In this document: positions 10,608 through 33,264 of the stretch, piece after piece | Layout of the letters: each line of letters opens with the position of its first letter | Position numbering within the stretch: position 1 is the first letter of the stretch | Origin: Burkholderiaceae bacterium | GTDB lineage: Bacteria; Pseudomonadota; Gammaproteobacteria; Burkholderiales; Burkholderiaceae_B | Assembly (NCBI GenBank): GCA_020851995.1 | Contig: JADZBO010000216.1 | Coordinates: 1 to 38,168 of the forward strand | Length of the DNA stretch: 38,168 bases | Direction: 5' to 3' | Translations under genes and position numbers: made by a program | The notes under the pieces: model-generated | Told to the model about the DNA's origin: nothing | The model's database searches: none | What the model saw: only the letters and a program-made list of their open reading frames with translations

Positions 10608-11960
<1,353 letters not shown>

Positions 11961-13025: not shown

Positions 13026-13049
13026 GGTTCACCAATCATCAAATGAACC
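13026..13049. promoter_or_regulatory. Inverted repeat over the start of the catabolic operon (possible operator)
   Basis: GGTTCA (13026-13031) and TGAACC (13044-13049) are perfect complements separated by 12 bp. The right arm covers the ATG at 13043. The position, just downstream of the promoter -10 box, suits a repressor operator or a translation-affecting hairpin. It does not match the inverted repeat near the TetR gene. Confidence 0.45.
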
Positions 13050-14059: not shown

Positions 14060-14062
14060 TCC

Positions 14063-15034: not shown

Positions 15035-15086
15035 TGATCTGCCAGATCACGAGCAACCTGAACCGAATCCAAGGAGCCAGCCCACC

Positions 15087-15875: not shown

Positions 15876-15876
15876 C

Positions 15877-17193: not shown

Positions 17194-17219
17194 ATCGCAG
17201 ATCCATTTCATAAGGTGCC

Positions 17220-18584
17220 ATGATGACGGTTACCCAGTCTCTCGCAAGGTTCATTGTCGGGCTCAATGCACCCGGCGCCATCCCGCCCGAAGTCCTGGAA
17301 AAAGCCAGGGTCTGCCTGATCAACGGGTACGGCATCGGGCTGGCCTGTTTCGACACGCCCTACGCCTCAGTGGCGTCAGCGGCCGCGCTTGCGATCGACG
17401 GCGAGAGGCCTGATGGCGCCACCATGTTGTGGGACGGACGCAAGACTTCGCTGTTCGGAGCGACGCTTGCCAATGGCGCACTGTTTCACGGCCGGGCACA
17501 GGAAGACGCCTGCGGCGCGGCGCATCTGGGTGCCATCCTGATTCCGGTACTCACTGCTGCGGTCGAAACCGGCCGCATGCCAGTCGACCGGATGCTGACA
17601 GCGCTGATCGCGGGCTACGAAGCCGGCGGTCTGTTCGAGATCAACTACGCCCCCAACACCACGCCAGTCGGCCTGCGCGCCTCGGCGCTTTACGGCGCCA
17701 TCGCGGCCGCGGCAAGCGGCGCCATCGCGCTCGGCCTGGACGAGGCACAGACAGCGGCTGCGCTGGGCAACGCAGCATCTTTCGCCGGCGGATTACTGCA
17801 GTCATTCGAGGACGGCACCGACGAATGGCGCTATCAGCTCGGCGTGGCAGCGCGCAACGGCTGGCTGGCGGCCGAGCTGGCACTCGCGGGATCGGTCTCC
17901 GCGCCGCGGGCCATCGAAGGCGGCAACGGCTTCATTCGCGCGTATGCGCGACGGGATTGCGATGCCGACGCGCTGACCGCCCAAATCGGCAAGACCTGGT
18001 TCATTCACCGCGTCGTCTTCAAGCCCTACCCGGTGTGCGCCTTCAACCAATCGCCGGTGAATGCCGCGCTCAATCTGCGCAAGCATCTGGAAGGCCGTAC
18101 ACCCGATCGCATCACGGTGCGGATGAACCCCTATGAAACCGGGTATGCCGGGATGAATAGCCAGGGGCCATTCTTTTCTGTGTCGGGTACGCTGATGAGC
18201 ATCCCGTTCTGCATCGCCAACACGCTGTTGTATGGCGCGCCCACGATGAAGATGATGATGGCTTTTGACGACCCGGCCGTGCAGAGCCTCGTGAGCCGCA
18301 TTGAACTGGTCGCCGATGCCAGTGTGCAACGCCTGTGTTGCGTCATCGACACGACGTTCGCCGACGGCTCTGCCCCGGTGACTGAGTCGCTGCAGATGTC
18401 AGTCGCCGACTACAACTATGACCGGGCGCAATTGCGCGATCTCATTCTGCGCGTGTGCGCGGAGGTGAACGTCGGACCGGAGTCTTTCGCGATCATCGAA
18501 CGTTTTGCCGACAACCCGGCGGCGACCGGCATCGGCACCGTGATCGAATGTTTTGCTGACGTACGCCGGCGGCGCGCCCAATAA
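17220..18584 (+). CDS. MmgE/PrpD family protein
   Basis: This 454-residue protein belongs to the family of 2-methylcitrate dehydratase (PrpD), MmgE and cis-aconitate decarboxylase. Recognisable segments are LANGALFHGRAQEDACGAAHLGAILIPVL near the N-terminus and LGNAASFAGGLLQSFEDGTDEWRYQLGVAARNG in the middle. FKPYPVCAFNQSPVNAAL is a typical PrpD C-terminal-domain motif. Members dehydrate or decarboxylate polycarboxylic acids, but many have unknown substrates. It follows E2 by 26 bp with AAGGTG before an ATGATG start. No methylcitrate synthase (prpC) or prpB is nearby, so propionate catabolism is unlikely. Confidence 0.88.
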   Translation: MMTVTQSLARFIVGLNAPGAIPPEVLEKARVCLINGYGIGLACFDTPYASVASAAALAIDGERPDGATMLWDGRKTSLFGATLANGALFHGRAQEDACGAAHLGAILIPVLTAAVETGRMPVDRMLTALIAGYEAGGLFEINYAPNTTPVGLRASALYGAIAAAASGAIALGLDEAQTAAALGNAASFAGGLLQSFEDGTDEWRYQLGVAARNGWLAAELALAGSVSAPRAIEGGNGFIRAYARRDCDADALTAQIGKTWFIHRVVFKPYPVCAFNQSPVNAALNLRKHLEGRTPDRITVRMNPYETGYAGMNSQGPFFSVSGTLMSIPFCIANTLLYGAPTMKMMMAFDDPAVQSLVSRIELVADASVQRLCCVIDTTFADGSAPVTESLQMSVADYNYDRAQLRDLILRVCAEVNVGPESFAIIERFADNPAATGIGTVIECFADVRRRRAQ

Positions 18585-18604
18585 CCCCTGACAGGATAGA
18601 GACG

Positions 18605-19777
18605 ATGAACTTTGAACTCACGGAAGAACAGCGGATGATCGCCGCCACCGCGCGCCAGGTCGGCGAGCGGTTCGGGCTGGACTACTGGCGCAAGATCGAC
18701 GCGGAAAAGAAGTTCCCGACCGAAATCTGGCAGGCGATCTGCGACGCCGGCCTCGGCGGGGTCGCCTTGCCGCCGGAGTACGGTGGCTCGGGCCTGGGGA
18801 TGCTGGAAATGGCCCTGATTGTCGAGAATCTGGCAGCCGCGGGCGCCGGCTCCACGATCGGGCAAATGTTCATGGTGAACCCGATTTTCGGCGGCGTATC
18901 GATCAGCAAGTTCGGCACACCTGAAATGAAGCGCGATCTGCTGCCCAAACTCATCTCGGGCGAGATGGGGTGCTGCATGGCGCTGACCGAGCCCGACGCA
19001 GGCACCAATACGCTCGAAATCCGCAGCTTCGCACGGGCCCAGGGTGACAGCTGGATTCTGAACGGGCGCAAAATCTGGATCACCGCGGTCGATGCCGCCG
19101 ACAAGATGCTGGTCATCGCGCGGACCAAAAAGCTCGAAGAGTCGCGCTCCCGCAGTGATGGTCTCACCATGTTCATGATTGACGTCGAGCGCAAGGGATT
19201 GACCTACACGCCGATCGACAAGGTCGGAACCAATACCCTGACCTCCAGCGCAGTGTTCTTTGACGATGTGGAAATCCGTCCGGACGAGCTCATCGGCACG
19301 CTGCACGGTGGCTGGCGTGAACTGCTGGATGTCCTCAATACCGAGCGTATCGTCACGACGGCCGGGCTGGTCGGAACAAGCGAACTGGCGATCAAACTGG
19401 CCGTCAATTACGCCAACGACCGCAAAATCTACGGCGATAAACCAATTTCAAGCTATCAGGGCCTACAGTTCCCGCTGGCCCAGTGCTACGCTGAAAATGA
19501 GGCAGCCCGCCTGCTGAACTACAAGGCGGCGGCAAATTTCGACGCTGGGCTTGCGTTCGGCAGTGAATCCAATGCCGCCAAGCTGCTCGCGGCGCAAGCC
19601 ACCGCCCGCGCCACCGAACGCTCCATGCAAACCATGGGCGGCATGGGGTTTTCAAAGGAATATCATGTCGAGCGGCTCTGGCGCGATTGCCGCTTGTTCC
19701 GGTTTGCCCCTATATCGGAAGAGATGATATTGAATTACATTGCGATGCACGATCTGGGTATGCCCAAGTCCTATTGA
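18605..19777 (+). CDS. Acyl-CoA dehydrogenase
   Basis: This 390-residue flavoenzyme oxidises an acyl-CoA to the 2-enoyl-CoA and passes electrons to ETF. Signatures are CCMALTEPDAGTNT (FAD and substrate site), NGRKIWIT and GGMGFSKEYHVERLWRDCR. The usual catalytic Glu near the C-terminus (YEGT motif) is replaced by RFAPISEEM. Glu247 in LNTERIV falls where isovaleryl-CoA dehydrogenase carries its base. This hints at a branched or unusual substrate. The hydratase 3.5 kb upstream could take the product. It lies 20 bp after the MmgE/PrpD gene. Confidence 0.93.
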   Translation: MNFELTEEQRMIAATARQVGERFGLDYWRKIDAEKKFPTEIWQAICDAGLGGVALPPEYGGSGLGMLEMALIVENLAAAGAGSTIGQMFMVNPIFGGVSISKFGTPEMKRDLLPKLISGEMGCCMALTEPDAGTNTLEIRSFARAQGDSWILNGRKIWITAVDAADKMLVIARTKKLEESRSRSDGLTMFMIDVERKGLTYTPIDKVGTNTLTSSAVFFDDVEIRPDELIGTLHGGWRELLDVLNTERIVTTAGLVGTSELAIKLAVNYANDRKIYGDKPISSYQGLQFPLAQCYAENEAARLLNYKAAANFDAGLAFGSESNAAKLLAAQATARATERSMQTMGGMGFSKEYHVERLWRDCRLFRFAPISEEMILNYIAMHDLGMPKSY

Positions 19778-19865: not shown

Positions 19866-21137
19866 ATGAATATCCGCGCCAACAAGCCCCTGCAACCCAC
19901 CCGCCGCAAACTGATCAAGGGCGCAGCTGCCATGGCCGGGATGGCAACGGTCAGCATCCCGGGCATTTCGCTCGCACAGAACAAACCCATCAAAATCGGT
20001 ATGCCAACCATCCTGTCCGGCAGGGTCGCGATGCTGGGCATTTCGTCACGCAACGCCGCCATGATGGAAGTCGAGAAGTTCAACGCGGCCGGCGGACTGA
20101 ACGGACGAATGATCGAAATGGTCATTCGCGACTCCAAGGGTGCCCCCCAGGAAGCCGCCCGCGTCGCCCGCGAAATGGTGACCAGCGACGGGTGCGAAAT
20201 CATTTTCGACGGCGAGGCATCCTCGGGCGCCTTCGCGGTTCACGAAGTCGCGCGCGACCTCGGCGTGCTGTGCATCCACAACAACTCCGAAACCTCCTCG
20301 CTCACCGCGGATCCGAAGCTGCGCATCCCCAATGCGTTTCGTTGCGCGCGCCAGGGCATCCAAGACGCCATCGTCGGTGGTGCCTACGCCGGACAGGTCG
20401 CCAAAGACAAGGGGCTCAAGCAATGGATGTCCATCTCGCCCGATTATGCCTACGGCCGGGATACGACAGCGGAATTCTTCGAATATCTGAAGCACTTCAA
20501 TAAAGACATCGAGGTCAGTAACCAGGTCTGGCCAAAACTTTTCCAGGCTGACTACAGCGAATCGATCACCCGCCTGCTCCAGGGTAAACCCCAGGCGATC
20601 TATTCCTGCCTGTGGGGCGGAGATCTGACTTCCTTTATCGATCAGGCCTCGATCTATGCGCTGTTCAAAGATCGCCAGTTCTTTGGTGTGAACATGGCTG
20701 ATTACGCTGTACTGACCACGGTCAAGAGCGTGCCCGCCGGCCTGCATTCAGGCAACCGTTACCTGCGGAGCTTCCCCAACACACCGGCCAACGCCGCCTG
20801 GTGTGACGCCTACTTTGCCAAGTACAAGGAAATGCCCCTGAACTGGGCCTGGCAGAACGCCGCCAGCATGCAGTTCCTGACCGAAGCGATCAAAAAGGCC
20901 AACGGCACGGATACCAAGAAGCTATCGGACGTCCTGCGTGGAATGACCATCAATTCGCCTTTCGGCGCCAATGGCAAACTGACGCTGCGCGCGGAAGATC
21001 AGACATTGGTCGATTACGCGATTGGCTGGGGTTCTCTGAATGCGAAGGAACCCTTCATGGCCAATCCGGTTCCGGGCAACTGGGCTCAAATCTTCGAACT
21101 TGAGTCCGCCTGGAAAAAAGCCAAAGGCTGGGGTTAA
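19866..21137 (+). CDS. Branched-chain amino acid-type ABC transporter substrate-binding protein
   Basis: This 423-residue periplasmic receptor belongs to the HAAT (LivK/AmiC/UrtA-like) group. The N-terminus contains TRRKLIKGAAAMAGMA, a twin-arginine-type signal, with probable cleavage after SLA near residue 37. The mature domain starts KPIKIGMPTILSGRVAMLG and continues with NAAGGLNGRMIEMVIRDSKG and SPDYAYGRD, as in two-lobed type I receptors. The ligand is not predictable. AGGAGA stands before the ATG. It begins the transport section of the operon, 88 bp after the acyl-CoA dehydrogenase. Confidence 0.92.
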   Translation: MNIRANKPLQPTRRKLIKGAAAMAGMATVSIPGISLAQNKPIKIGMPTILSGRVAMLGISSRNAAMMEVEKFNAAGGLNGRMIEMVIRDSKGAPQEAARVAREMVTSDGCEIIFDGEASSGAFAVHEVARDLGVLCIHNNSETSSLTADPKLRIPNAFRCARQGIQDAIVGGAYAGQVAKDKGLKQWMSISPDYAYGRDTTAEFFEYLKHFNKDIEVSNQVWPKLFQADYSESITRLLQGKPQAIYSCLWGGDLTSFIDQASIYALFKDRQFFGVNMADYAVLTTVKSVPAGLHSGNRYLRSFPNTPANAAWCDAYFAKYKEMPLNWAWQNAASMQFLTEAIKKANGTDTKKLSDVLRGMTINSPFGANGKLTLRAEDQTLVDYAIGWGSLNAKEPFMANPVPGNWAQIFELESAWKKAKGWG

Positions 21138-21275
21138 GGCTTTCGGGCCTTCCTGGTAATCGGCGCGGCGGCCTCGACCTTGTCGCGGCGCGCGCCTGAT
21201 TGACCGCGTAACGGGGCATCCGCGCCCGTTGCTGGCGCAGCGTAACGCGCCCACCTGTTTGACTCGGAGACATTC

Positions 21276-22181
21276 TTGGATCCCACCGCGCTCCTCGAAT
21301 GCGTGACATCGCTGTCATGCATCGTGACCCAGGCGAGCACCGGACTCATCGTCGGTGCCCTCCTCTTTCTGGTGGCCGCCGGCCTGACGCTGATCTTTGG
21401 CGTGCTCGGCGTGATCAACTTCGCCCACGGCTCGCTCTACATGCTGGGCGCGTATGTTGCTCTCACCGCCTACCGACTCAGCGACAACTTCTTGTTGTCG
21501 GCGCTGGCATCGGGCCTCGCCATCGCCGTGTTCTCACTCGTCTTCGAACGGCTGTTCATGCGTCGCGTCTATAACGCAGATGTGCTGATGCAATTACTGG
21601 TGTGCTATGCCTTCATCCTGATCCTGGACGATGCGGTCAAGATCATCTGGGGGCCCGAGTTCCAGTCGATGGGAATGCCCGAGGAGTTCCAGGTTCCGCC
21701 CATGTTTATCGGCGGGGGCGTGGTTCCGGTGTTCTACGTGTTTCTGATCTGCGCGGCCTCTGTGATTGCCGCAGTCCTCTGGTGGTCGCTCACCCGCACG
21801 CGCATGGGCAAGATCGTGCGCGCGGCGGCGCACAATCCGACCATGACGTCGGTTTTGGGGTTGAACACCAACCTGATCTACGCCGCCGTGTTTGCCGTGG
21901 GCGGCGGGCTCGCCGGCCTGGCGGGCGCGCTGGCCGCACCGGTGCGTTCGATGTCGCCTGGCATGGGTTTCTCGATTCTGATCGAGTCCTTCATCGTCAC
22001 CGTGATCGGCGGCATGGGTTCCGTGAGTGGTGCGCTAGTCGGCGCACTCCTGATCGGACTGATACGCTCGTTTGGTTCGATCGGGTTTCCGCTGTTCGTC
22101 GAAGGCATCATGTTCGTGGCGATGGCACTGATCCTGATCCTCAGGCCCAGTGGTCTGCTCGGCAAGGAGCCGCGCCCATGA
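21276..22181 (+). CDS. Branched-chain amino acid-type ABC transporter permease, LivH-like
   Basis: This 301-residue inner-membrane permease has about eight hydrophobic helices and the family motif LTLIFGVLGVINFAHGSLYMLGAY near residues 40-63. A conserved GLAGLAGALAAPVRSMSPGMG stretch lies near 215. The start is a TTG at 21276: GGAGA lies 5 nt upstream, and the first conserved helix leaves no later suitable start. It follows the receptor gene after 138 bp with no obvious terminator. Its stop overlaps the livM start (ATGA). Confidence 0.92.
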   Translation: MDPTALLECVTSLSCIVTQASTGLIVGALLFLVAAGLTLIFGVLGVINFAHGSLYMLGAYVALTAYRLSDNFLLSALASGLAIAVFSLVFERLFMRRVYNADVLMQLLVCYAFILILDDAVKIIWGPEFQSMGMPEEFQVPPMFIGGGVVPVFYVFLICAASVIAAVLWWSLTRTRMGKIVRAAAHNPTMTSVLGLNTNLIYAAVFAVGGGLAGLAGALAAPVRSMSPGMGFSILIESFIVTVIGGMGSVSGALVGALLIGLIRSFGSIGFPLFVEGIMFVAMALILILRPSGLLGKEPRP

Positions 22182-23149
22182 CCCGGCAAACCCATTTTGG
22201 CAAGGAACTGTTCTGGGCCGGCGTGGCGCTTGCACTGCTGATTGCCGTCCCCTACCTGACTTCCTCGCGCATCGCGCTGGACTTCGTGATTCGCCTGGCC
22301 GCGTACGGCCTGTTCGCCACCTCCCTGAACATTCTGGTCGGTTACGGCGGCATGGTGTCTTTCGGTCATGCGATGTTCTTCGGGGCGGGCGCATATGCGT
22401 TCGGGCTGATGATGCAAAAAGCCGGTGTGTCGATCCCAGTCGCCATGCTGACCAGCGTCGCCGTCTGCGCCGCGATTGGCGCGGTGATCGGCGCGATCTG
22501 TGTGCGTCTGAAGGAAATTTACTTTTCTTTCCTGACCCTTGCCTTCCAGATGCTGATCTACAGCGTGATCCTGTCCTGGAAATCGCTGACTGGCGGCGAT
22601 CAGGGCCTGATGGGCGGCATCCCCCGCACGCCGTTCTGGGGCATCAACCTGGGCGACCCAACCGTGTTGTACTGGTTCGCCTGCGTGGTGGGCGTGGTCT
22701 GCATGCTGCTGATGCGCTATATCCTGCAATCACCCTACGGGTACACCCTGCGCATGGTGCGCGACAACGCCGATCGCGCCCGGTTCCTCGGCATCGACGT
22801 CTGGCGCGTCAAGCTGTATGCCTTTGTGCTGTCGGCCTGCTTTGCCGGCGTCGGCGGGATCATCATGGCGATGTTCGTCTCGGGCGCGTATCCCGAGTTT
22901 TCTTACTGGACGCAATCCGGCGAAGCGGTTTTCATGATCATGATGGGTGGCCTGCATGCGTTCATCGGCCCGCTCGTGGGAGCCGCACTGCTGCTGCTCT
23001 TCAATGACGTGATTACGCGCACCACCGAATACCATGGACTGGCGCTCGGCATCGTCGTGCTGATCTTCGCCCTAGGATTCAAACGCGGCATTACCGACTT
23101 CGCCATCCAGATCACGCGCTCACTGCGCGGCGAACGGAGACAACCATGA
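22178..23149 (+). CDS. Branched-chain amino acid-type ABC transporter permease, LivM-like
   Basis: This 323-residue second permease of the HAAT importer has multiple membrane helices. SLNILVGYGGMVSFGHAMFFGAGAY is the LivM signature near residues 47-71. RFLGIDVWRVKLYAFVLSACFAGVGG and MMGGLHAFIGPLVGA are further conserved segments. The ATG at 22178 overlaps the livH stop as ATGA; an open frame runs further upstream but is only the shadow of livH. Its own stop overlaps the start of an SDR gene, again as ATGA. Confidence 0.93.
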   Translation: MTRQTHFGKELFWAGVALALLIAVPYLTSSRIALDFVIRLAAYGLFATSLNILVGYGGMVSFGHAMFFGAGAYAFGLMMQKAGVSIPVAMLTSVAVCAAIGAVIGAICVRLKEIYFSFLTLAFQMLIYSVILSWKSLTGGDQGLMGGIPRTPFWGINLGDPTVLYWFACVVGVVCMLLMRYILQSPYGYTLRMVRDNADRARFLGIDVWRVKLYAFVLSACFAGVGGIIMAMFVSGAYPEFSYWTQSGEAVFMIMMGGLHAFIGPLVGAALLLLFNDVITRTTEYHGLALGIVVLIFALGFKRGITDFAIQITRSLRGERRQP

Positions 23150-23940
23150 GTGCAAGCATTACCGTCGTCACTGGCGGGTCCAGCGGCATTGGCGCCGCGT
23201 GCGTCGAGCACCTGGCAAAGCGCGGCGACCAGGTCATCGTACTGGACCTGCCGGGTACCTGGTCAGATGAAGCCATGCGCAGCATCGGTGTGCACGCATA
23301 CGCGTGCGACGTCACCGATGAAGCAGCGCTGCGCCAGTGCGCTGAAATGATCGAATCGCGCCATGGAGCCGTCAGAGGCCTCGTGAATAGTGCCGGGATC
23401 CTGCAGCATCGCCTGCCGCCCGAACAACTGACCATGGCGGAATGGGATCGGGTCATCGCCGTCGACCAGCGCGGCACCTACCTCGCAAGCGCAATCTTCG
23501 GATCGCGCATGGCCGAGCTAGGTCGTGGCGCGATCGTCAACATCGCGTCGATCACCGGATGGCGCTCGGTGCCGCTGCACGCCTATGCACCCGCCAAAGC
23601 GGCGGTCATCTCGATCACGGAATGCATGGCTGCGGAATGGGGCCGATCCGGCGTGCGCGTCAATGCGATATCGCCGGGCTACACGCTAACGCAGGCGCTG
23701 CAAGCCGCAATCGACCGAGGTGACCGCAATCCGGAGGAACTGACCTCGCAGGCGGCAATGGGACGGCTCGTGAAGCCTTCCGAAGTCGCCGATGCAGTGG
23801 CCTTCCTGTTGTCCCCGGCGGCCAGTGCGATTACCGGAATCAACCTGCCGGTCGACGCCGGCTGGCTGGCCGGCTCGACGTGGATGACCTACGGGGGCGT
23901 TCCCCCGGCACGACAGTCGCAATCGCACGGAGTGAAGTGA
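23146..23940 (+). CDS. SDR family oxidoreductase (embedded between transporter genes)
   Basis: This 264-residue classical short-chain dehydrogenase oxidises or reduces an alcohol/ketone with NAD(P). The nucleotide motif TGGSSGIG is at the N-terminus, and the acidic Asp in VLDLPG after the second strand favours NAD. The catalytic triad is Ser135, Tyr147 and Lys151 (YAPAK). It overlaps livM by 4 bp and livG by 1 bp, so it is translated in concert with the importer. That placement implies it acts on the imported substrate or an early product. The C-terminal tail after GWLAGSTWMTYGG is longer than in most SDRs. Confidence 0.93.
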   Translation: MSASITVVTGGSSGIGAACVEHLAKRGDQVIVLDLPGTWSDEAMRSIGVHAYACDVTDEAALRQCAEMIESRHGAVRGLVNSAGILQHRLPPEQLTMAEWDRVIAVDQRGTYLASAIFGSRMAELGRGAIVNIASITGWRSVPLHAYAPAKAAVISITECMAAEWGRSGVRVNAISPGYTLTQALQAAIDRGDRNPEELTSQAAMGRLVKPSEVADAVAFLLSPAASAITGINLPVDAGWLAGSTWMTYGGVPPARQSQSHGVK

Positions 23941-24692
23941 TGCTTCGAATCGAAAATCTCTGCAAATCATTCGGTGGGGTGATCGCGACGTCGGACGTAT
24001 CGATCCACTTCCGCACGGAATCGCTCAGCGCGGTGATCGGGCCCAACGGGGCGGGCAAGACCACGTTCTTCAACCTGATCTCCGGCGCGCTGCAACCCGA
24101 TTCAGGCAAAATTCTGCTCGATGGCGAAAACATCGTCGGAACACCCAGCAGCGAGATCGTGCACAAGGGCATCGGCCGGGCATTCCAGGTCGCCAAGTTG
24201 TTCAAGACCCTGACGGTCGAAGAATCCCTGCGCGGCGCGCTGATGTCACCGCTGGGGCGCTCGTCACAGATGCACGGTCGGTTTCCTCTTGCACAGACGC
24301 GCAACCGCGCCTGGGAAGTGATGGAGCAACTCGGCCTGCACACCAAGGCGAACGTCGTGAGCGGCAATCTGTCCCACGGCGACCAGAAACTGCTCGACAT
24401 GGCGCTGGCGCTGGTGCTCAACCCGAAAGTACTGCTGCTCGACGAGCCCGTGGCCGGTATGGGTCCGGAGGAACGCGAGCAAATGATCGAAACGGTCTAC
24501 GCGCTCTGGAAACGTGGCGGCCTCACCGTCGTGCTGATTGAGCACGACATGGACATCGTTTTCCGAATTTCCCAGCACATCCATGTTCTGTCCTACGGCA
24601 AACTGCTGGCCGAAGGCAATGCCGAAGAAATTCGCAACAATCCGGCCGTGATCGAGGCCTATCTGGGCACACCGCGGGAGGCGCACGCATGA
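23940..24692 (+). CDS. Branched-chain amino acid-type ABC transporter ATPase, LivG-like
   Basis: This 250-residue cytoplasmic ATPase of the importer has Walker A GPNGAGKTT, the signature region LSHGDQKLLDMALAL (a variant of LSGGQ), Walker B KVLLLDEPVAGM and the switch His in IEHDMDIVF. The start MLRIENLCKSFGG at 23940 overlaps the SDR stop by 1 bp (TGATG). The C-terminal YGKLLAEGNAEEIRNNPAVIEAYLG is a typical LivG tail. It overlaps livF by 4 bp. Confidence 0.94.
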   Translation: MLRIENLCKSFGGVIATSDVSIHFRTESLSAVIGPNGAGKTTFFNLISGALQPDSGKILLDGENIVGTPSSEIVHKGIGRAFQVAKLFKTLTVEESLRGALMSPLGRSSQMHGRFPLAQTRNRAWEVMEQLGLHTKANVVSGNLSHGDQKLLDMALALVLNPKVLLLDEPVAGMGPEEREQMIETVYALWKRGGLTVVLIEHDMDIVFRISQHIHVLSYGKLLAEGNAEEIRNNPAVIEAYLGTPREAHA

Positions 24693-25402
24693 GCGCGGAA
24701 GTACTACAGGTCGAGGGCATCGACGTCTACTACGGCACCAGCCAGGTGCTGTTCAACATGTCGCTCGCGGTACGCCAGGGCGAAACTCTGGCCCTGCTTG
24801 GCAGAAACGGGGCGGGCAAAAGCACCACGATGAAGGCGATTGCGGGTGTGCTCACGCCGCGGCGCGGTCAAGTCAAACTGCGCGGCAAAGACATCACCAG
24901 CAAGCCCCCCCATGTCATCTCGCGCGCCGGCATCAGCTTTGTCCCTGAAGACCGTCAGATCTTCCCGGATCTTTCGGTCGAGGACAATCTGCTGATTGCG
25001 ATCAAACCGAATACCGGCGGCAAGAAGGACTGGAGCCTCGAGCGCGTCTACGACATGCTGCCGTTACTCGCGCCGCTCAAGGCGCGGCTGGGAGGACAAC
25101 TGTCCGGCGGCGAGCAGCAGATGCTGACCGTAGGGCGGGCGCTGATGGGCAACCCGGATGTTCTGCTGCTCGATGAGCCCAGCGAGGGCCTCGCCCCCAT
25201 CATGGTGCAGAAGATCGGTGATCTGATCGAAACGCTGCGCGGCGTGGGCACCACGATCGTGCTGGCCGAACAGAACCTGCATTTCTGTCTCGGGCTCGCC
25301 GACCGCGCGGTCGTGATCGACAAGGGCGCCGACGTCTTTGTCGGAACCATTGACGAGCTCAATGCCGACGCCGAGATCAAGCAACGCTATCTGTCCGTTT
25401 GA
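24689..25402 (+). CDS. Branched-chain amino acid-type ABC transporter ATPase, LivF-like
   Basis: This 237-residue second ATPase subunit of the importer has Walker A LLGRNGAGKSTTMKAI, the LivF-specific SFVPEDRQIFPDLSVEDNLL, signature LSGGEQQM, Walker B DVLLLDEPSEGL and switch VLAEQNLHF. The ATG overlaps the livG stop as ATGA. A second SDR gene starts 13 bp after its stop. Confidence 0.95.
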   Translation: MSAEVLQVEGIDVYYGTSQVLFNMSLAVRQGETLALLGRNGAGKSTTMKAIAGVLTPRRGQVKLRGKDITSKPPHVISRAGISFVPEDRQIFPDLSVEDNLLIAIKPNTGGKKDWSLERVYDMLPLLAPLKARLGGQLSGGEQQMLTVGRALMGNPDVLLLDEPSEGLAPIMVQKIGDLIETLRGVGTTIVLAEQNLHFCLGLADRAVVIDKGADVFVGTIDELNADAEIKQRYLSV

Positions 25403-26251: not shown

Positions 26252-26929
26252 ATGTATAAAGTCGTCACCGTCTACAAACGCAAACCCGGAATGGATGTCG
26301 AGGTTTTTCAGCGCCGTTGGCTGGAAGGCCACGCGCCGCTTGTCGCGATGCTCCCCGGATTGCGGCGTTATGTTCAATCGCACAGCCTCGTGCAAGGGTA
26401 TCGCAAAGGGGATCTGCCCTGCGACGGAATCAGCGAAATGTGGTTCGATTCGCGCGAGGCCTGGCAACGGGCCATGGCAGATCCGGCCGCCGCGACGGTT
26501 CAGTCCGATGAAACAGCCTTCATCGATCCGTTGCGCAAAGTGGTCATGCCGGTCGAGGCGCTTGTGATCAAGGACGGGGAAATTCCCCTGAACGCCGTGA
26601 AAAACATCGAATTCGTCAATCGGCGCCCGGGCATGGAGCTGAATGCATTCCGCACCTACTGGCGCGCGGTGCACGGCCCGCTCGCCTCGCAGATCGCACC
26701 GTTGCGCCGGTACGAGCAAAATCACCTGCAATTGCATGAATATGCCGAGGGCAGGCCGGCACCCGCCTTTGACGGCCTTGCCATCACCTGGTTTGACTCC
26801 ACGGCGGCGATGAAAGACGGTGCGACGACGCCGATCTACGCGCAGACCCGGGCAGATGAAGCCAACTTCCTGCCCGACGGGCACCTGCCCTTCATTGTCA
26901 CGCGCGAACGCGAGATCCGGCTGGGGTAG
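26252..26929 (+). CDS. Tandem EthD-domain protein
   Basis: This 225-residue protein is made of two dimeric alpha-beta barrel (EthD-like) repeats. VVTVYKRKPGMDVEVFQRRWLEGHAPLV (about residues 4-31) is echoed by IEFVNRRPGMELNAFRTYWRAVHGPLA (about 114-140). Each is followed by a LRRY segment and a later WFDS segment. EthD domains occur in ETBE degradation clusters and in small lyase, isomerase or monooxygenase-like proteins; the activity here is unknown. AGGAAAGG gives a strong Shine-Dalgarno sequence. It is the last gene of the operon, and its end overlaps the convergent TetR gene by 32 bp. Confidence 0.82.
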   Translation: MYKVVTVYKRKPGMDVEVFQRRWLEGHAPLVAMLPGLRRYVQSHSLVQGYRKGDLPCDGISEMWFDSREAWQRAMADPAAATVQSDETAFIDPLRKVVMPVEALVIKDGEIPLNAVKNIEFVNRRPGMELNAFRTYWRAVHGPLASQIAPLRRYEQNHLQLHEYAEGRPAPAFDGLAITWFDSTAAMKDGATTPIYAQTRADEANFLPDGHLPFIVTREREIRLG

Positions 26930-27599
26930 ACTCCGCGGCCCCCTCCAGCCCGCCGGAAATCAGGCGACGATAGGCGGTCACGACCCAATCGGGGATGTCG
27001 TCGTGCTGCTCTTCGCCATAAACGTACCGCCAGGCGAGGTAGCTGCGCGCAGCCATCAGCACGAAGGCGACGACTTCGAGTTCGCGATCCTCGAATCCGC
27101 GCAACTCGCCGGCCTGCGCTGCTCTGCGGAAAAAGCTGACATATCCGGCGGCCACAAGATCCAGGTGCGCCCGGTAGGCGTTGGGCGCAAAGCTTTCGGC
27201 TTCGTTCAGAATCCGGAAGAAGTGCGGATTCTCACGCAGGAACGAAAAGAAAGCCCGGAAACCAAGCTCCTCGCGCTCGATGAGGGTTTTGCCCTCACGC
27301 GCACAACGTCCGACGTGTTCGAGCATATCCTTGCCCAGGGTCGGAAGCAGTTGATCAAGGAGATCCTGCCGCGACTTGAAATGGTTATAAAAGGTGCCCT
27401 GCGCCACGCCTGCCCGTTGCGTGATCAGCGAAATCGAGGCCTCCTGATAGCCGCGTTCGCCGACCACTGCGGACGCGGCGCGAAACAGCCCCTCGCGGAT
27501 CAGCCTGCCGCGTTCATCGCGTGTGGGCGCGTCGCGCCAGCCGGGGGGATCGGGCGGGACGGTAGCGGACGAACGTGTTGCTGCGGTCTTGCGAGCCAT
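26898..27599 (-). CDS. TetR/AcrR family transcriptional regulator
   Basis: This 233-residue repressor has an N-terminal helix-turn-helix near residues 30-75 (RLIREGLFRAASAVVGERGY, then ISLITQRAGVAQGTFYNHF) with the usual YNHFKSRQDLL. The rest is a helical ligand-binding domain. I prefer the ATG at 27599 (MARKTAATR); an ATG at 27632 and a TTG at 27659 are alternatives, and none has a clear Shine-Dalgarno sequence. It is convergent with the catabolic operon and divergent from nadC. It is a candidate repressor for the catabolic unit, itself or nadC. A GC-rich, basic N-terminal arm precedes the HTH. Confidence 0.92.
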   Translation of the reverse strand: MARKTAATRSSATVPPDPPGWRDAPTRDERGRLIREGLFRAASAVVGERGYQEASISLITQRAGVAQGTFYNHFKSRQDLLDQLLPTLGKDMLEHVGRCAREGKTLIEREELGFRAFFSFLRENPHFFRILNEAESFAPNAYRAHLDLVAAGYVSFFRRAAQAGELRGFEDRELEVVAFVLMAARSYLAWRYVYGEEQHDDIPDWVVTAYRRLISGGLEGAAESTPAGSRVRA

Positions 27600-27712
27600 G
27601 AAGAGTCGGTTGTCGAACGATTCGGTCTCCATTCTCTCATACGGAACGCGCCCCTCCAAGGGCGCGGGACGGTCACTATTGCAGAACGCGCCAGATTCCT
27701 ATAGCATTAAAA

Positions 27713-27795: not shown

Positions 27796-28626
27796 ATGTA
27801 CGACATTTTCCAGATTGACCGTCTGATCGACCTTTGGCTGACCGAGGATATCGGCACCTGCGACCTGACCGCACAGCTCATGATTGACGAAGATGCGAAG
27901 AGCACCTTCCACATGAATGCCCGTGAACCCATGGTAATCGCCGGCATTGACGTCGCGGCGCGGCTTTTCGCCCGCTACGACCCGACCCTGACCGTCACAC
28001 GCCTGGCTCGCGACGGCGAGCGCGTCGAAAAGGGCGCGCGCATCCTGACCGTCAGTGGACCGGCGCGCAGCATCCTCACCGCCGAGCGACCGGCACTCAA
28101 TATCCTGCAGCGGCTTTGTGGCATCGCCACTGAAACCGCACGCTTCAACGCCGAACTGGCCGGTACGGGCGCACGCCTGATTGACACCCGCAAGACCACA
28201 CCCGGGCTGCGCATGCTTGAAAAGCACGCCGTCTCGTGTGGTGGCGGGCTCAACCACCGGCTTGGCCTGGACAATGGCGTAATGCTCAAGGACAACCACA
28301 TCGCGGTGGCGGGCAGCATTGCCGGCGCGGTGGAGCGCGTCAGGCAAAAGCTGCCGGTACTCACCAAGATCGAGGTGGAGTGCGACCGGCTGGAGCAGGT
28401 CGAGGAAGCGCTCGCCGCCCGCGCCGACGTAATCATGCTGGACAACATGTCAATCGAGGACATGACGACTGCAGTCAAACTGGTGAACGGCCGCGCCAAG
28501 ATCGAAGCGTCGGGCGGCATCCGCATCGACACGATCCGCAACGTTGCCCTCACCGGCGTGGACTACATCTCCACAAGCAAGATCACGCAAGCCGCGCCCG
28601 CGGTCGACATCGGCCTGGACGAATAA
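27796..28626 (+). CDS. nadC: Nicotinate-nucleotide pyrophosphorylase (carboxylating)
   Basis: This 276-residue quinolinate phosphoribosyltransferase converts quinolinate and PRPP to nicotinate mononucleotide, CO2 and PPi. IDTRKTTPGLRMLEKHAV, CGGGLNHRLGLDNGVMLKDNH and KIEVECDRLEQVEEAL are the expected active-site segments. MLKDNH argues for NadC rather than the ModD paralog. No nadA or nadB is adjacent, whereas nadC often sits with them. Instead the PhnN-phosphorylase fusion follows after 14 bp on the same strand. That partner could make PRPP, the co-substrate of NadC. Confidence 0.93.
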   Translation: MYDIFQIDRLIDLWLTEDIGTCDLTAQLMIDEDAKSTFHMNAREPMVIAGIDVAARLFARYDPTLTVTRLARDGERVEKGARILTVSGPARSILTAERPALNILQRLCGIATETARFNAELAGTGARLIDTRKTTPGLRMLEKHAVSCGGGLNHRLGLDNGVMLKDNHIAVAGSIAGAVERVRQKLPVLTKIEVECDRLEQVEEALAARADVIMLDNMSIEDMTTAVKLVNGRAKIEASGGIRIDTIRNVALTGVDYISTSKITQAAPAVDIGLDE

Positions 28627-28640
28627 CCGGAGCCCGGTCC

Positions 28641-30416
28641 GTGCAGGGCAGCTTTATTTACGTCGTCGGCCCAAGCGGCGCCGGCAAGGACAGTCTGATC
28701 AGCGGCGCCCGCGAAAGGCTCTCGCCCGAGTCTTTCGTGTTCGCGCGGCGCACGATCACCCGGCAAGCGGGTGCGCCAGGCGAGGATCACGACTCCTGTA
28801 CCCCGGAAGAATTCGCGAGGCGTGAGGCCAAGGGCGATTTCCTCATCACGTGGCACGCCCATTCACTCCATTACGGCCTGTCCTCCAGTCTGCTTGATGA
28901 CCTTGCCGCCGGCAGAAGCGTCATTGCCAACGGCTCGCGCAACATGATTGCCGCGCTCGCCGAACGCGTCCCATCGCTGCTGGTTGTCGAAGTCACGGCG
29001 CCCGCACACATTCTGCACGAACGGCTGCACGGGCGTGGGCGTGAAACCGCCGATGACGTCGCCAAGCGCCTGCAGCGCCAGGTCAAACCCTACCCCGAAG
29101 GCGTTCAGGTCGTGCAAGTGGTCAATGACCAGTCTCTCGAGGTTGGCATCACGCGATTCATGGACACACTGGTCGACCACCTCGGGCTTGCCCCGGTCGA
29201 AAAGCGCGCCCTGCTGCACAAGATTGCGGGAAAAAAACTCACCGAACCAGAATATCGCCATGTGCTGGGGGCCATCGCCGAGCAGACGGTGACGGGTGCC
29301 GAACTGGACGCCTTTTTGATTGCCTGCACCGAAAGCCTGGATGACGAGGAACTGATCGCGGTCGCGCGGTGCCGCTGCGAACGCATGCCGCGCATTGACT
29401 GGGGCCGTCAAGTCGTGGTTGACAAACACTCCTTGGGTGGAACTCCGGGTAGCCGGGTCACCATGGTCGTCATCCCGATCATCGCCGCCCATGGGCTACT
29501 GATTCCGAAGACCTCATCGCGCGCCATTACATCCGCCGCTGGCACAGCCGATGCCATGGAGGTGCTTGCCCGCGTCGATCTGACGCCCGACGAGCTCCGG
29601 CGCGTCGTGCTTGAGACCAACGCCTGCATCGCCTGGAACGGCAGGCTCAACCACTCGGCGCTTGACGACTCCATGAACGCGATCACGCGCCCCCTCGGAC
29701 TCGATACCCGCCGCTGGTCGGTTGCTTCGATACTGTCCAAGAAGTATTCGGCTGGGGCCACGCATGTGGTCATCGACATCCCCTATTCGCCCACCGGCAA
29801 GGTGAAATCACGTAAGGATGGTGAGGAGCTGGCCCGCTTGTTTGAAATGGTCGGCGAACGTCTCGGTCTGGTGGTCAGAGCCTTTGCCACCCGGGGCGAT
29901 GCGCCGATCGGACGCGGGATTGGCCCTGCGCTGGAAACACGCGACGTCCTGATGGTGCTGGACAACCATCAGGATGCGCCACAAGATCTGCTCGACAAGT
30001 CGCTTTTCTTCGCCAGTCAGATTCTCGCGCTCGCCGGTGCTGTCGGCAGCCTTGAGGCCGGGCGCGCGCGGGCGCTGGCGCTGCTTGCATCGGGCGCGGC
30101 ACGCAAGGCGTTTGACCGCATCGTAAGCGCCCAGGGCGCTCAGCCACGCGCGGATCTCTCAGGCCTGCATACGCATGAAATCGTGTCTGCGCAGGGTGGC
30201 GTCGTTCAGGGGGTCGACGGCTACGTCATCTCCGGAATCGCTCGCACTGCCGGCGCGCCGCGTGATGCCTGGGCCGGCGTGGATCTTGTCAGGACAATCG
30301 GCGCCCAAGTCCTGCCGGGTGACACGCTCTACCGGATTCAATCACGCGACGCACAGTCACTGGCGGCCGCTGTCGCGCTGGCCCGTGCGAGCCATGGATT
30401 CACCCTTCAGGATTAG
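28641..30416 (+). CDS. Fusion of PhnN-type ribose 1,5-bisphosphate phosphokinase and AMP/thymidine phosphorylase-family core
   Basis: This is a 591-residue two-domain protein. Residues 1-185 match PhnN: Walker A VVGPSGAGKDS (Gly10-Lys16), FARRTITR, GEDHDS, WHAHSLHYGL and RLHGRGRE. PhnN phosphorylates ribose 1,5-bisphosphate to PRPP. Residues about 190-591 match the type-2 thymidine phosphorylase/archaeal AMP phosphorylase core, with DKHSLGGTPGSRVT (Asp261-Thr274), KTSSRAITSAAGTADAMEVL (from Lys290) and RGDAPIGRGIGPALE. AMP phosphorylases turn NMP and phosphate into base and ribose 1,5-bisphosphate, which is PhnN's substrate. The N-terminal domain of about 80 residues usual in these phosphorylases is absent. 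The start is a GTG at 28641 with GGAG 8 nt upstream. No C-P lyase genes are near. Domain identities are firm; the combined reaction is inference. Confidence 0.88.
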   Translation: MQGSFIYVVGPSGAGKDSLISGARERLSPESFVFARRTITRQAGAPGEDHDSCTPEEFARREAKGDFLITWHAHSLHYGLSSSLLDDLAAGRSVIANGSRNMIAALAERVPSLLVVEVTAPAHILHERLHGRGRETADDVAKRLQRQVKPYPEGVQVVQVVNDQSLEVGITRFMDTLVDHLGLAPVEKRALLHKIAGKKLTEPEYRHVLGAIAEQTVTGAELDAFLIACTESLDDEELIAVARCRCERMPRIDWGRQVVVDKHSLGGTPGSRVTMVVIPIIAAHGLLIPKTSSRAITSAAGTADAMEVLARVDLTPDELRRVVLETNACIAWNGRLNHSALDDSMNAITRPLGLDTRRWSVASILSKKYSAGATHVVIDIPYSPTGKVKSRKDGEELARLFEMVGERLGLVVRAFATRGDAPIGRGIGPALETRDVLMVLDNHQDAPQDLLDKSLFFASQILALAGAVGSLEAGRARALALLASGAARKAFDRIVSAQGAQPRADLSGLHTHEIVSAQGGVVQGVDGYVISGIARTAGAPRDAWAGVDLVRTIGAQVLPGDTLYRIQSRDAQSLAAAVALARASHGFTLQD

Positions 30417-32083
30417 TGGCCGAATCCGTCCGCGACAACCACTTCCACCAAATTCGGACGGCCGCTGGCGAGGGCTTCCTGCAGCACGCCAGCCAGATCT
30501 GCTGGCTCGGTCACGCAGCGGGATTCAACCCCCATGCTGCGCGCGACACCGGCAAAATCGATCGGCGGATCGCTCATATCCATGGCGACAAACTGGTCGG
30601 TGCCACGCATCGCCATCAACCGCTCCTTGATGATGCGATAGCTGCGATTGTTGATGATCACATAGGTAATGGGCAACCTCAGGTGTGCGGCCGTCCAGAG
30701 TGCCTGAATGCTGTACATTGCGCTGCCGTCGCCAATCGTCGCCACGACCGGCCGATCGGGTTGAGCGAGCGCCACACCCACCGCTCCGGCCATGCCGAAT
30801 CCCAGACCCCCACTGGCCAAGCCGAAAAAACTCTTCGCCTCGTCCATGGGGATCATCGCCGCGATGGCAGGCGATGCGGTCAGCGTCTCATCGACGACAA
30901 CCACATCCTTGGGCAGTGCATCAACCAATTGCGTGATGAGGTAGCGCTGGTCAATCGGTTTCGCCGCGGCAGCGGCGAGGAACTCCGTACGCCGCTGGTC
31001 GCGATTCGCGCTCCAGTTGTGGGCAGCCAGCGCCTGCAGGCGCGCGCGGGCGCGATCGGCCTGATCCGCGCTGCGCGAGCGACGCAAGATGGGCAGCAAC
31101 GCCCGCAAGGTCTCGCGGACGTCGGCGCGCACGGCATGCTCGACCGGATAATTCTTGCCAAGCTCCCAGTCGCGCTCGCTGATGTGCATGACGGGAAGCC
31201 CGTCCGGCATCGGATCGACGGCTCCGAGAGGCGACATACGCAACAGATCCGCGCCCAGGCACAACAGGAAGTCATGTTGCTCCAGGGTCTTCCGAACGCG
31301 CACCTGGTTGCGGGTCAGATCGCCCATGCAGGCAGGATGCGATGAGGGAAACCGCGCGTTGTAGGGTACGGATTCCTGATACACAGCCGCCCCCAGCAGT
31401 TCCGCGAGCTCGCACGCCTCAGCCAGTACGTCACGCTGCGCCAGTTCCCGCCCCGCCACAATCACGGGCCGCTCGGCCGACAGCATGCGGGCGGCCAACA
31501 GCGCCAGCATCTCATCGCTGGGCCGTGTGGCCGCATCAACGCGCGTGGGGAAGCCAAATTCGATCTGCGCCTCGTCATCCAGAATTGACCCAGGCAAGCT
31601 CAGGAACACAGGCCCCATCGGGGGCGTCATCGCAATCTTCGCCGCGCGGCGCACAATGCGCGGCAAATCCTCGATGCGGGTCACTTCAAAGGCCCACTTC
31701 ACCAGCGGCTTGGCAATCTCCACGAGGGGCTCGTACAGCAGAGGCTCCTGCAACCCGTAGCCGATCTCGTACTGTCCGGCAGTAATCAGCAGCGGGGAAC
31801 CGGAAAACTTCGCGCTGTAGATCGCTCCCATGGCATGCCCCAGTCCGGGTGCACAATGCAGGTTCACCGCGGTCAGCCTGCCGCTGGCACGCGCGAAACC
31901 GTCCGCCATGCCCACGACAACCGACTCCTGCAGGCCAAGCACATAGGTCAGTTCAGGAAACTGCGGCACAGCTTCCATGATGGCGAGTTCAGTGGTGCCG
32001 GGATTGCCAAAAAGGTGGGTGACGCCCTCGTCGAGCAGTAGCTTGATGAAGGCCGCCCGGCCGGTCAGTTTTTGAATGGACAT
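30413..32083 (-). CDS. Benzoylformate decarboxylase-like ThDP enzyme
   Basis: This 556-residue ThDP enzyme has the three-domain layout of the acetolactate synthase/benzoylformate decarboxylase group. It has LFGNPGTTELA at the N-terminus, Glu53 in LGLQES (ThDP activation) and His76 in NLHCAPG, which matches the catalytic His70 of P. putida benzoylformate decarboxylase. The ThDP motif IGDGSAMYSIQALWTAAHLRLPITYVIINN lies near the C-terminus. The Ser26 equivalent is Thr30. Activity is probably decarboxylation of a 2-oxoacid to an aldehyde. I choose the ATG at 32083 (MSIQKLTGRAAF); an upstream extension is not conserved-looking. The stop interlocks with that of the PhnN fusion (4-bp overlap). Confidence 0.85.
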   Translation of the reverse strand: MSIQKLTGRAAFIKLLLDEGVTHLFGNPGTTELAIMEAVPQFPELTYVLGLQESVVVGMADGFARASGRLTAVNLHCAPGLGHAMGAIYSAKFSGSPLLITAGQYEIGYGLQEPLLYEPLVEIAKPLVKWAFEVTRIEDLPRIVRRAAKIAMTPPMGPVFLSLPGSILDDEAQIEFGFPTRVDAATRPSDEMLALLAARMLSAERPVIVAGRELAQRDVLAEACELAELLGAAVYQESVPYNARFPSSHPACMGDLTRNQVRVRKTLEQHDFLLCLGADLLRMSPLGAVDPMPDGLPVMHISERDWELGKNYPVEHAVRADVRETLRALLPILRRSRSADQADRARARLQALAAHNWSANRDQRRTEFLAAAAAKPIDQRYLITQLVDALPKDVVVVDETLTASPAIAAMIPMDEAKSFFGLASGGLGFGMAGAVGVALAQPDRPVVATIGDGSAMYSIQALWTAAHLRLPITYVIINNRSYRIIKERLMAMRGTDQFVAMDMSDPPIDFAGVARSMGVESRCVTEPADLAGVLQEALASGRPNLVEVVVADGFGH

Positions 32084-32184
32084 GATGGTTCCGTGTGCTT
32101 CGCGTGAGTGCCCTGTCGCTATCGCTGCGCGGGCCAGAATGATTCGGACGGACGCGCGGGTGAATCCCGCGTCGTCCATTGTGA

Positions 32185-33264
32185 CTAGACGACGCCGGCC
32201 TTGCGTGCAAACTCTGCGCGGTCCAGGTTCAACTGGTCGCAGGTCGACAGTAATTCCTTCCAGGTGTTTTCGTCGACTGGCACACCATCGGCCAGTCGCT
32301 TCGCACGGTATTCGCGCTCCGGCTCGCCGGCGACGCGAACACGGTCATGTCCGTGCTGGCGGGGCGAATCCGTCACCCACGCCAGAAACCCTTTCATTTC
32401 GCGCTCGAACACCGATTCATCGGCAAGACGCGACGGATCGAAAATGATCGACAGCATGCCGTTGACGACTCGACGGCGCCCGTCGGCAGGCTGCCGCTGG
32501 GTCATGCCGCCGGCGAGCGCGCCGCCCAGGATTTCGCACACCAGAGCGAGTCCGTAGCCTTTGTGCTCGCCAAACGCGCGCAGCGCCCCGTAAGGCGGAT
32601 GCACTGCGTAGGCGGGATCGGTGCTCGGGCGGCCCTCATGGTCGATCAGCTGACCCTCGGCGAGCGGCTCGCGCTTGTTGTGGGCCACCCGTGCCTTGCC
32701 CTGCGCGATCACGCTGGTCGCGAAGTCCAGCAGAATCGGATTCTCTCCCTTCACGGGTATCCCCACGCAAAAGGGATTGGTACCAAAACGCGCGTCGCCA
32801 CCCGCCCACGGCGCCACGATCGGGCGCGACAGCACGTTCACGAAATGAATCGAAACAAGACCCTGCGCAACCGCCATTTCGGCCCAGGCGCCGATACGGC
32901 ACAGGTGGTGCGAATTGGCGACGCCGATGATGCAACTGCCGTGTTCGCGCGCGCGCTCAATGCCGAGTTCCATGACCTCGTGGCCGATGACCTGACCGAA
33001 GCCCGACTGCCCGTCCAGGCCAATCATGGCGCCAGAATCCATTCGCATTTCAATGTGCGCGTTGGGCTTGAGCCCGCCTTCGCGCAGCGATTCGGCATAG
33101 CGCGGGAGCATCCCCACCCCGTGCGAATCGTGGCCGGTCAGGTTGGCCTGCACCAGGTTTTCCGTGACCAGCTCGATTTCGCGTGGTTCACTGCCGAACC
33201 CCGCGACAAGGTATCGAATCGCTGCCCTCAAACGATCCGCATCAATGAAATGCATGTGCGCCAT
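32185..33264 (-). CDS. Malate/L-lactate (LDH2) family NAD(P)-dependent dehydrogenase
   Basis: This 359-residue protein of the LDH2/MDH2 family oxidises 2-hydroxyacids such as malate, lactate, sulfolactate or ureidoglycolate. Characteristic segments are NLTGHDSHGVGMLPRYAESL, GQSGFGQVIGHEVMELGIERA, GVANSHHLCRIGAWAEMA and FGTNPFCVGIPVKGENPILLDFATS. GALRAFGEHKGYGLALVCEILGGAL lies in the second half. The His in SHH is probably catalytic. GGGGGA lies 4 nt before the ATG at 33264; an ATG at 33255 is an alternative. It lies 101 bp upstream of the decarboxylase-like gene on the same strand, consistent with sequential steps. Confidence 0.9.
   Translation of the reverse strand: MAHMHFIDADRLRAAIRYLVAGFGSEPREIELVTENLVQANLTGHDSHGVGMLPRYAESLREGGLKPNAHIEMRMDSGAMIGLDGQSGFGQVIGHEVMELGIERAREHGSCIIGVANSHHLCRIGAWAEMAVAQGLVSIHFVNVLSRPIVAPWAGGDARFGTNPFCVGIPVKGENPILLDFATSVIAQGKARVAHNKREPLAEGQLIDHEGRPSTDPAYAVHPPYGALRAFGEHKGYGLALVCEILGGALAGGMTQRQPADGRRRVVNGMLSIIFDPSRLADESVFEREMKGFLAWVTDSPRQHGHDRVRVAGEPEREYRAKRLADGVPVDENTWKELLSTCDQLNLDRAEFARKAGVV

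Follow-up and report, generated by a model that had tools for sequence, protein, structure and literature searches.

A PhnN-type kinase fused to a nucleotide phosphorylase core beside nadC: a candidate route from quinolinate to nicotinate

Which nucleotide would be consumed by a protein that joins a PhnN-type ribose 1,5-bisphosphokinase to the core of a nucleoside monophosphate (NMP) phosphorylase? The question is raised by a 38,168-nucleotide stretch of DNA from a Burkholderiaceae bacterium (assembly GCA_020851995.1, contig JADZBO010000216.1), referred to here at its full length as the window. Positions 28,641-30,416 of its plus strand form one intact open reading frame (ORF) with a GTG start, 591 residues and 0 internal stops. 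A preliminary description, made from the letters of the window alone, had read this gene as a possible one-protein enzyme that turns NMPs, namely adenosine, cytidine and uridine monophosphate (AMP, CMP and UMP), into phosphoribosyl pyrophosphate (PRPP). We lean towards a different substrate: the fusion would be a bifunctional enzyme that combines a nicotinate mononucleotide (NaMN) phosphorylase with a ribose 1,5-bisphosphokinase, and together with NadC, the product of the adjoining gene, it would cycle quinolinate to nicotinate.

In the proposed cycle, NadC would convert quinolinate and PRPP to NaMN, CO2 and pyrophosphate, the C-terminal core of the fusion would split NaMN with phosphate into nicotinate and ribose 1,5-bisphosphate, and the PhnN domain would use ATP to convert ribose 1,5-bisphosphate back to PRPP with release of ADP. 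The net reaction would be quinolinate + phosphate + ATP -> nicotinate + CO2 + pyrophosphate + ADP; PRPP would merely be cycled, and its phosphoribosyl group would act as a reusable handle permitting decarboxylation. Nicotinate would then enter the hydroxylase/6-hydroxynicotinate reductase (Hnr) pathway. Because the pyridinium N-glycosidic bond is a high-energy bond, phosphorolysis should be favourable for NaMN, in contrast to AMP. Each step of catalysis, the choice of base, the way the flux runs and any channelling are inferences from sequence. Our observations are the architecture itself, its pairing with nadC, the clade structure, three residues specific to the fusions, and a nicotinate operon that is present and recurs near the fusion.

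Architecture of the fusion protein

The N-terminal part of the protein matched the PhnN model TIGR02322 above its curated cut-off (Table 1), and its Walker A motif was intact, including G15, K16 and D17 in 43/43 fusions; we take this GKD to be typical of PhnN. The 43 fusions compared come from Beta- and Alphaproteobacteria; L003/L022 and the fragments in G010, G015 and G025 were left out as incomplete, and L023 (= L006) and L025 (= L018) as the same genomes. The core passed the cut-off of the NF003338/PRK04350 'thymidine phosphorylase' subfamily (525.3 vs 434 bits, residues 187-588). It was homologous to the AMP phosphorylase model TIGR03327, yet scored under its cut-off (376 vs 535 bits), and it fell just under that of TIGR02645 (415.8 vs 434.6 bits). 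The union of a PhnN domain and an AMP-phosphorylase-family core in one ORF, as the preliminary description had it, was thus confirmed, and the motifs it named were found where it placed them (Walker A from residue 10, DKHSLGGTPGSRVT at 261-274 and KTSSRAITS from 290). Because the NF003338 match begins only at profile position 92, the family's N-terminal domain is missing from the window protein and PhnN stands in its place.

The best solved relatives by sequence were 4ga4/4ga5 (E 9.4e-74), whose molecule name is putative thymidine phosphorylase and whose entry title is AMP phosphorylase. The same entries were top-ranked when a Foldseek search was run with an AF2 model of the window protein (mean predicted local distance difference test score, pLDDT, 75.4). 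We take PDB entries 4ga4-4ga6 to be TK0352 of T. kodakarensis, an archaeal AMP (NMP) phosphorylase.

Phylogenetic trees of the core were built with 11 unfused bacterial and three archaeal relatives and a single DeoA as the outgroup. The window core grouped with the NMP phosphorylases, away from this one DeoA on its very long branch, and KTSSRAITS was kept; the family assignment made earlier for the C-terminal half was therefore borne out. A true thymidine phosphorylase of the DeoA type was ruled out by this tree with its single DeoA and by a TIGR02643 score of 107.7 vs 570.7 bits. In trees with 14 and then 23 fusions, the fusions formed one clade (100/100) on a long stem. Since 43 fusions were found across two classes, the architecture is neither a chance event nor an assembly artefact. 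A function in phosphonate metabolism was also ruled out, in agreement with the preliminary description: no phn gene was found among the 20 window proteins scanned, which cover part of the window, and the gene upstream is nadC instead of a member of a phosphonate operon.

Pairing with nadC and residues of the base site

The neighbouring gene nadC (27,796-28,626) had been overlooked. Its stop codon is separated from the GTG of the fusion by 14 bases, its product scored above the TIGR00078 cut-off and kept the conserved basic residues, and it was the single nadC found in the window genome. The pairing proved to be recurrent, as 35 of the 43 fusions are directly preceded by a same-strand nadC; these include both Beta- and Alphaproteobacteria and three plasmid copies. 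Of the remaining eight, two are no more than 20 bases from the end of a contig. The other six follow cytochrome bc1 genes, and in each of them the genes immediately upstream are those for cytochrome b and cytochrome c1 (L145:8771-10801, L147:9160-11466, L146, L148, L149 and L151).

In a NadC tree, 15 fusion-linked NadCs formed one clade (100/99) with a long stem. These were 63-88% identical to the window NadC across classes, vs 41-47% for 12 other NadCs from the window's family and order; identity over all 34 fusion-linked NadCs was 58-89%. R98, R132, K133, R139, R155, K165 and H168 were invariant in 18 fusion-linked and the 12 other NadCs, and by the criterion used five conservative positions only set the clade apart. 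A nadC of Paracoccus zhejiangensis (L152:9998-10834) was found near cobalamin genes. The distinct, long-stemmed clade, as well as the variety of transporters that adjoin the fusions (TTT, TRAP and Liv-type ABC), would suit an alternative in which this NadC makes another pyridine or aromatic-acid ribotide from a different dicarboxylate, and the core consumes it with PRPP recycled likewise. We regard this as improbable, as the canonical NadC residues checked are unchanged and the recurrent partner of the fusion is a nicotinate operon, as described below.

The distribution of genes for nicotinamide adenine dinucleotide (NAD) synthesis was compared with that of the fusion. Among the 32 genomes of the window's genus, nadA was found in none, which rules out a de novo NAD operon, and pncB in 31 (G002 had no match). 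By contrast, nadC was present in 21 of the 23 genus genomes with the fusion and in 0 of the 9 without it; in the two misses (G018 and G025), the fusion stands at a contig start. Within the genus, nadC therefore goes with the fusion and not with a need for NAD. Outside the genus, eight whole genomes with the fusion each have a single nadC, and nadA was found only in that of Rhizobiales 2SD.

Three residues of the core set the fusions apart from their relatives. Arg245, His338 and Asn346 were present in 43/43 fusions and in 0/14 unfused family members (11 bacterial and three archaeal), so that at these positions the window protein is unlike the unfused NMP phosphorylases. Asn346 aligns with a Tyr of the E. 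coli thymidine phosphorylase DeoA, which we take to be Tyr168, near the base or in the base pocket. If placed at the base, polar or cationic residues of this kind could accommodate the nicotinate carboxylate; the structural argument for such a position concerns Asn346. NaMN as the substrate would fit these residues and the adjoining nadC better than AMP, CMP or UMP. Of the activity first proposed, the conversion of a nucleotide through ribose 1,5-bisphosphate to PRPP in one protein was upheld at the level of sequence, and it is the choice of AMP, CMP and UMP that the nadC pairing and the three residues disfavour.

These data also bear on the main rival explanation, which we judge unlikely, yet worth keeping in view. 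Here, a broad NMP phosphorylase and PhnN would convert AMP, CMP and UMP to PRPP, nadC would adjoin the fusion because NadC uses PRPP, and the pair would salvage exogenous quinolinate into NAD, with nucleotides as the source of the PRPP. Membership of the family and the KTSSRAITS motif of NMP phosphorylases are consistent with it, as is the existence of bc1-adjoining fusions without nadC. Imported quinolinate could moreover be the NAD source outside the genus, because seven of the eight whole fusion genomes there have no nadA. A published account likewise reads a neighbourhood of bug27, nadC and phnN as NAD synthesis in its main text (PMC11452294). This rival is harder to reconcile with Arg245, His338 and Asn346, which are unlike those of all unfused relatives compared, and with the genus itself, where pncB is already nearly universal and genomes without the fusion do without nadC. 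NAD synthesis requires little PRPP, which also counts against it. Furthermore, it leaves the nearness of the nicotinate operon at 13/41 loci unexplained, and the genome G567 has both the fusion and an unfused family member.

The nicotinate operon and the weight of the evidence

The candidate NaMN phosphorylase would deliver nicotinate, and genes for its catabolism were found near the fusion at some loci. The gene beside the fusion in Jezberella-type loci was 60-74% identical to plasmid genes, several of which are annotated as Hnr (15 of the 26 records listed for this comparison). One reference operon comprises genes for an amidohydrolase, a TetR regulator, a ferredoxin reductase, Hnr, UPF0280 and AA_synth proteins, a Liv-type ABC transporter and a molybdenum hydroxylase. 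Hnr lay inside the fetched locus at 13 of 41 distinct fusion loci (15 Hnr loci minus the copies L035 and L047; the other 28 loci all exceed 6 kb), and it did so in three gene orders: beyond the fusion in L023, L025, L042, L050 and L063, divergently upstream of nadC in L026-L032, and upstream in L140, which belongs to another Burkholderiales family. In the window genome, the whole operon (molybdenum hydroxylase, 2Fe-2S protein, ABC transporter, UPF0280, Hnr, ferredoxin reductase and amidohydrolase) is on another contig, C179 (L082), and not near the window. An ORF cluster in the Bosea loci (c19), which at first seemed to be a gene of unknown function, was found to be the antisense of hnr.

Overall, Hnr was found in 38 of 44 fusion-bearing genomes (G069, which is G013 again, was counted once). 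These include 21 of the 23 genomes with the fusion in the window's genus, 8/8 genomes behind L024 and L026-L032, 8 of 11 further fusion genomes of the Bosea order and one of two further Burkholderiales. Of the nine genus genomes without the fusion, none clearly has Hnr; an 83-residue match in G007 was counted as absent, and Hnr of G010 and G012 was counted from pieces. The association within the genus gave a Fisher p of 6e-6 over 31 genomes, G002 being missing from the tree and the 2x2 tables. The last Hnr search covered 60 genomes: 13 with the fusion, all 22 of the Bosea order with only an unfused relative, 18 of the 362 with neither, and seven Burkholderiales with an unfused relative. In the Bosea order, Hnr was present in 10/13 genomes with the fusion vs 15/40 without it (p 0.02), and it was found in 0/7 of the Burkholderiales genomes with an unfused relative.

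Several observations weigh against a role of the fusion in quinolinate catabolism. Hnr was missing from six of the 44 fusion genomes (G020, G026, G163, G789, G513 and G624), its match in G541 contains a TGA, and none was found in three plasmid records, for which the plasmids only and not the chromosomes were searched. Twenty-eight of the 41 fusion loci, the window included, have no nearby Hnr. The link within the genus rests on about three changes of the fusion on the tree, so that independent pairs cannot reach significance, and Hnr also occurs in 11 of the 22 Bosea-order genomes with only an unfused relative. For these two reasons, gene nearness is a stronger argument than co-occurrence. The six bc1-type loci gave no NadC-like match in their 2.8-9.7 kb of upstream DNA, and their fusions retain the same Arg245, His338 and Asn346; the three residues thus go with the fusion and not with nadC. 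The Paracoccus zhejiangensis NadC, which is plasmid-borne and 59% identical to that of the window, has no adjoining fusion. In three genomes of the genus (G001, G002 and G007), the same cluster contains PhnN as a stand-alone gene and lacks both nadC and the phosphorylase part. NadC could also supply NAD synthesis, and both roles may coexist. Finally, the Liv-type ABC transporter of the window is not the nicotinate one; it is only 28-46% identical to the transporter of the nicotinate operon and is therefore perhaps for another substrate.

Phosphorylases are reversible in principle, and together with the six fusions that have no adjoining nadC this admits a further alternative, in which the fusion would work in reverse and combine nicotinate with ribose 1,5-bisphosphate to give NaMN, or would recover ribose from NaMN or NAD breakdown. 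We consider this very improbable, as pncB already makes nicotinate salvage possible in 31 of the 32 genus members and the kinase domain would be a rival consumer of ribose 1,5-bisphosphate. Returning to the conversion of quinolinate to nicotinate, a wider picture may be drawn of a catabolic pathway that uses PRPP as a catalyst and not as a currency, with ribose 1,5-bisphosphate perhaps channelled from one domain to the other and the whole unit moved between Beta- and Alphaproteobacteria; we would neither back nor doubt this picture as a whole.

If the proposed function is correct, it would supply genes for the step from quinolinate to nicotinate in bacterial catabolism, for which we know of none. 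The family, annotated as thymidine phosphorylase, would gain a new activity in NaMN phosphorolysis, and an enzyme of NAD biosynthesis would have been turned to catabolism. In such genomes, nadC need then not be a sign of NAD synthesis, and a protein that bears the PhnN annotation may be more than its name says.

Spread, surroundings and relation to known systems

Sixty-one genomes of relatives were searched, 32 of them from the window's genus. The fusion, whole or fragmentary, was present in 23 of these 32, among them Jezberella montanilacus; four of the 23 (G010, G015, G016 and G025) were counted from fragments. In 399 Burkholderiales genomes, the phosphorylase family was found in 31 at E <= 1e-60. 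Three of these were fusions (G000, G163 and G360), and in the other 28 the match starts only at residue 167, as judged from the match range only. In the order of Bosea lupini, 35 of 397 genomes had the family, and the match range indicated a fusion in 13 of them; 11 of these were new, and local analysis confirmed them. Plasmid-borne fusions occur in Variovorax SRS16, Paraburkholderia 22B1P and Pacificitalea manganoxidans, those of Variovorax and Pacificitalea being annotated merely as PhnN, and more were found in a Rhodoferax metagenome-assembled genome and in Bosea, Rhizobiales and Methylobacterium assemblies.

In the fusions of Bosea, Variovorax and Pacificitalea, the stretch between PhnN and the core resembles the N-terminal domain of the family by eye, and in that of L147 the family profile matches from position 5; this domain thus appears to be retained there. 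The stretch is absent from the fusions of the window's genus, Rhodoferax and Paraburkholderia. From these sequences, it is likely that PhnN was joined to a full-length phosphorylase and that the middle domain was lost later. The solo PhnNs (L051:3644-4210, L052:7030-7596 and L054:7988-8554) have 188 residues, are 58-61% identical to the PhnN part of the window protein and lie in a cluster of ABC-transporter and thiamine pyrophosphate (TPP) enzyme genes, in genomes without nadC. They fall among the fusion PhnNs in a poorly resolved tree and have the appearance of fusions that later lost their phosphorylase part. In G007, an unfused phosphorylase is encoded at another place in the genome. In G567 (locus L143), the fusion (8443-10755) and the unfused family member (16342-17883) are about 6 kb apart.

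The transporter genes around the fusions vary. A TTT binding protein gene follows the fusion in Variovorax and is near it in Jezberella (L025). TRAP genes adjoin it in Pacificitalea and, according to Pfam, in L144; the gene clusters of L144 recur in L140-L143 and L150. As acid-type transporters, the TTT and TRAP systems provide supporting context for quinolinate as the starting compound, as does the reported binding of quinolinate by Bug27 (PMC11452294). In the window itself, positions 13,043-19,777 hold a putative catabolic cluster with 2-oxoacid dehydrogenase E1 alpha/beta and E2, enoyl-CoA-hydratase-like, MmgE/PrpD and acyl-CoA dehydrogenase genes, and the Liv-type ABC transporter follows. 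Between 21,276 and 23,149, Liv-type permease matches at 21,309-22,178 and 22,235-23,128 are in two reading frames; a 515-residue ORF from 21,602 overlaps the first match, and its N-terminal part is for this reason probably not translated. A protein with two EthD-domain stretches is encoded at 26,279-26,929. On the minus strand, a benzoylformate-decarboxylase-like TPP enzyme and an Ldh_2-type dehydrogenase adjoin the fusion at 30,413-33,264.

Table 1. Features of the fusion gene and its neighbours, in window positions.
Feature	Position	Strand	Evidence
PhnN::NMP-phosphorylase fusion gene	28641..30416	+	GTG start, 591 aa; ORF call and profile matches
PhnN-type ribose 1,5-bisphosphokinase domain, residues 3-177	28647..29171	+	TIGR02322 181.5 bits, cut-off 156
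Walker A GPSGAGKD, residues 10-17	28668..28691	+	G10, G13, G15, K16, D17 in 43/43 fusions
NMP-phosphorylase core, residues 187-588	29199..30404	+	NF003338 525.3 bits, TIGR03327 376 bits, 4ga4/4ga5
DKHSLGGTPGSRVT, residues 261-274	29421..29462	+	D261, K262, H263, S264 in 43/43 fusions
KTSSRAITS, residues 290-298	29508..29534	+	common to fusions and unfused bacterial/archaeal NMP phosphorylases; differs in DeoA
Arg245	29373..29375	+	Arg in 43/43 fusions; Met in 14 unfused family members
His338	29652..29654	+	His in 43/43 fusions; Leu in 14 unfused
Asn346	29676..29678	+	Asn in 43/43 fusions; Ile (once Val) in 14 unfused
nadC, quinolinate phosphoribosyltransferase	27796..28626	+	TIGR00078 325.4 bits, cut-off 198.4; directly upstream of fusion
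TetR-family regulator, divergent from nadC	26898..27659	-	PF00440
Liv-type ABC transporter genes and short-chain dehydrogenase/reductase (SDR), upstream	19866..25402	+	family matches

No paper on a PhnN-phosphorylase fusion or on NaMN phosphorolysis in quinolinate catabolism was found by title or abstract among the matches listed, in a search with subscription journals mostly outside its scope. The nearest precedent is the neighbourhood of bug27, nadC and phnN in Variovorax and Jezberella, which consists of the same genes as those described here. According to the main text of that report, Bug27 of Bordetella binds quinolinate in vitro, its orthologues lie beside nadC and phnN in these two genera, and uptake of quinolinate for NAD synthesis is proposed (PMC11452294). 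The words 'phosphorylase', 'thymidine', 'catabol' and 'hydroxynicotinate' each occur 0 times in this main text, which seems to discuss neither the second domain nor a catabolic role.

Compared with archaeal AMP phosphorylase, the window protein has a similar core fold and sequence, including KTSSRAITS and related motifs, but it carries PhnN in place of the N-terminal domain and Arg245, His338 and Asn346 in place of Met, Leu and Ile, and it remains below the TIGR03327 cut-off. It resembles PhnN in its TIGR02322 match and intact Walker A motif and differs from it in being fused to a phosphorylase and encoded beside nadC, away from any phn gene among the proteins scanned. The unfused bacterial 'thymidine phosphorylase family proteins' (PRK04350) share the family model NF003338; in contrast to the fusions, they are free-standing, have the N-terminal domain and fall outside the fusion clade. 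Of 10 such members whose neighbours were compared, six adjoin a ribose-phosphate-diphosphokinase-like gene (L053, L055, L058, L073, L075 and L076, as opposed to L056, L057, L072 and L074) and none adjoins nadC. Nicotinate catabolism through Hnr, known from Eubacterium barkeri and Azorhizobium, is described in PMC3511419, and the corresponding operon is present in the window's genome. The known Hnr pathway begins with nicotinate, and the proposed module would supply it with nicotinate made from quinolinate.

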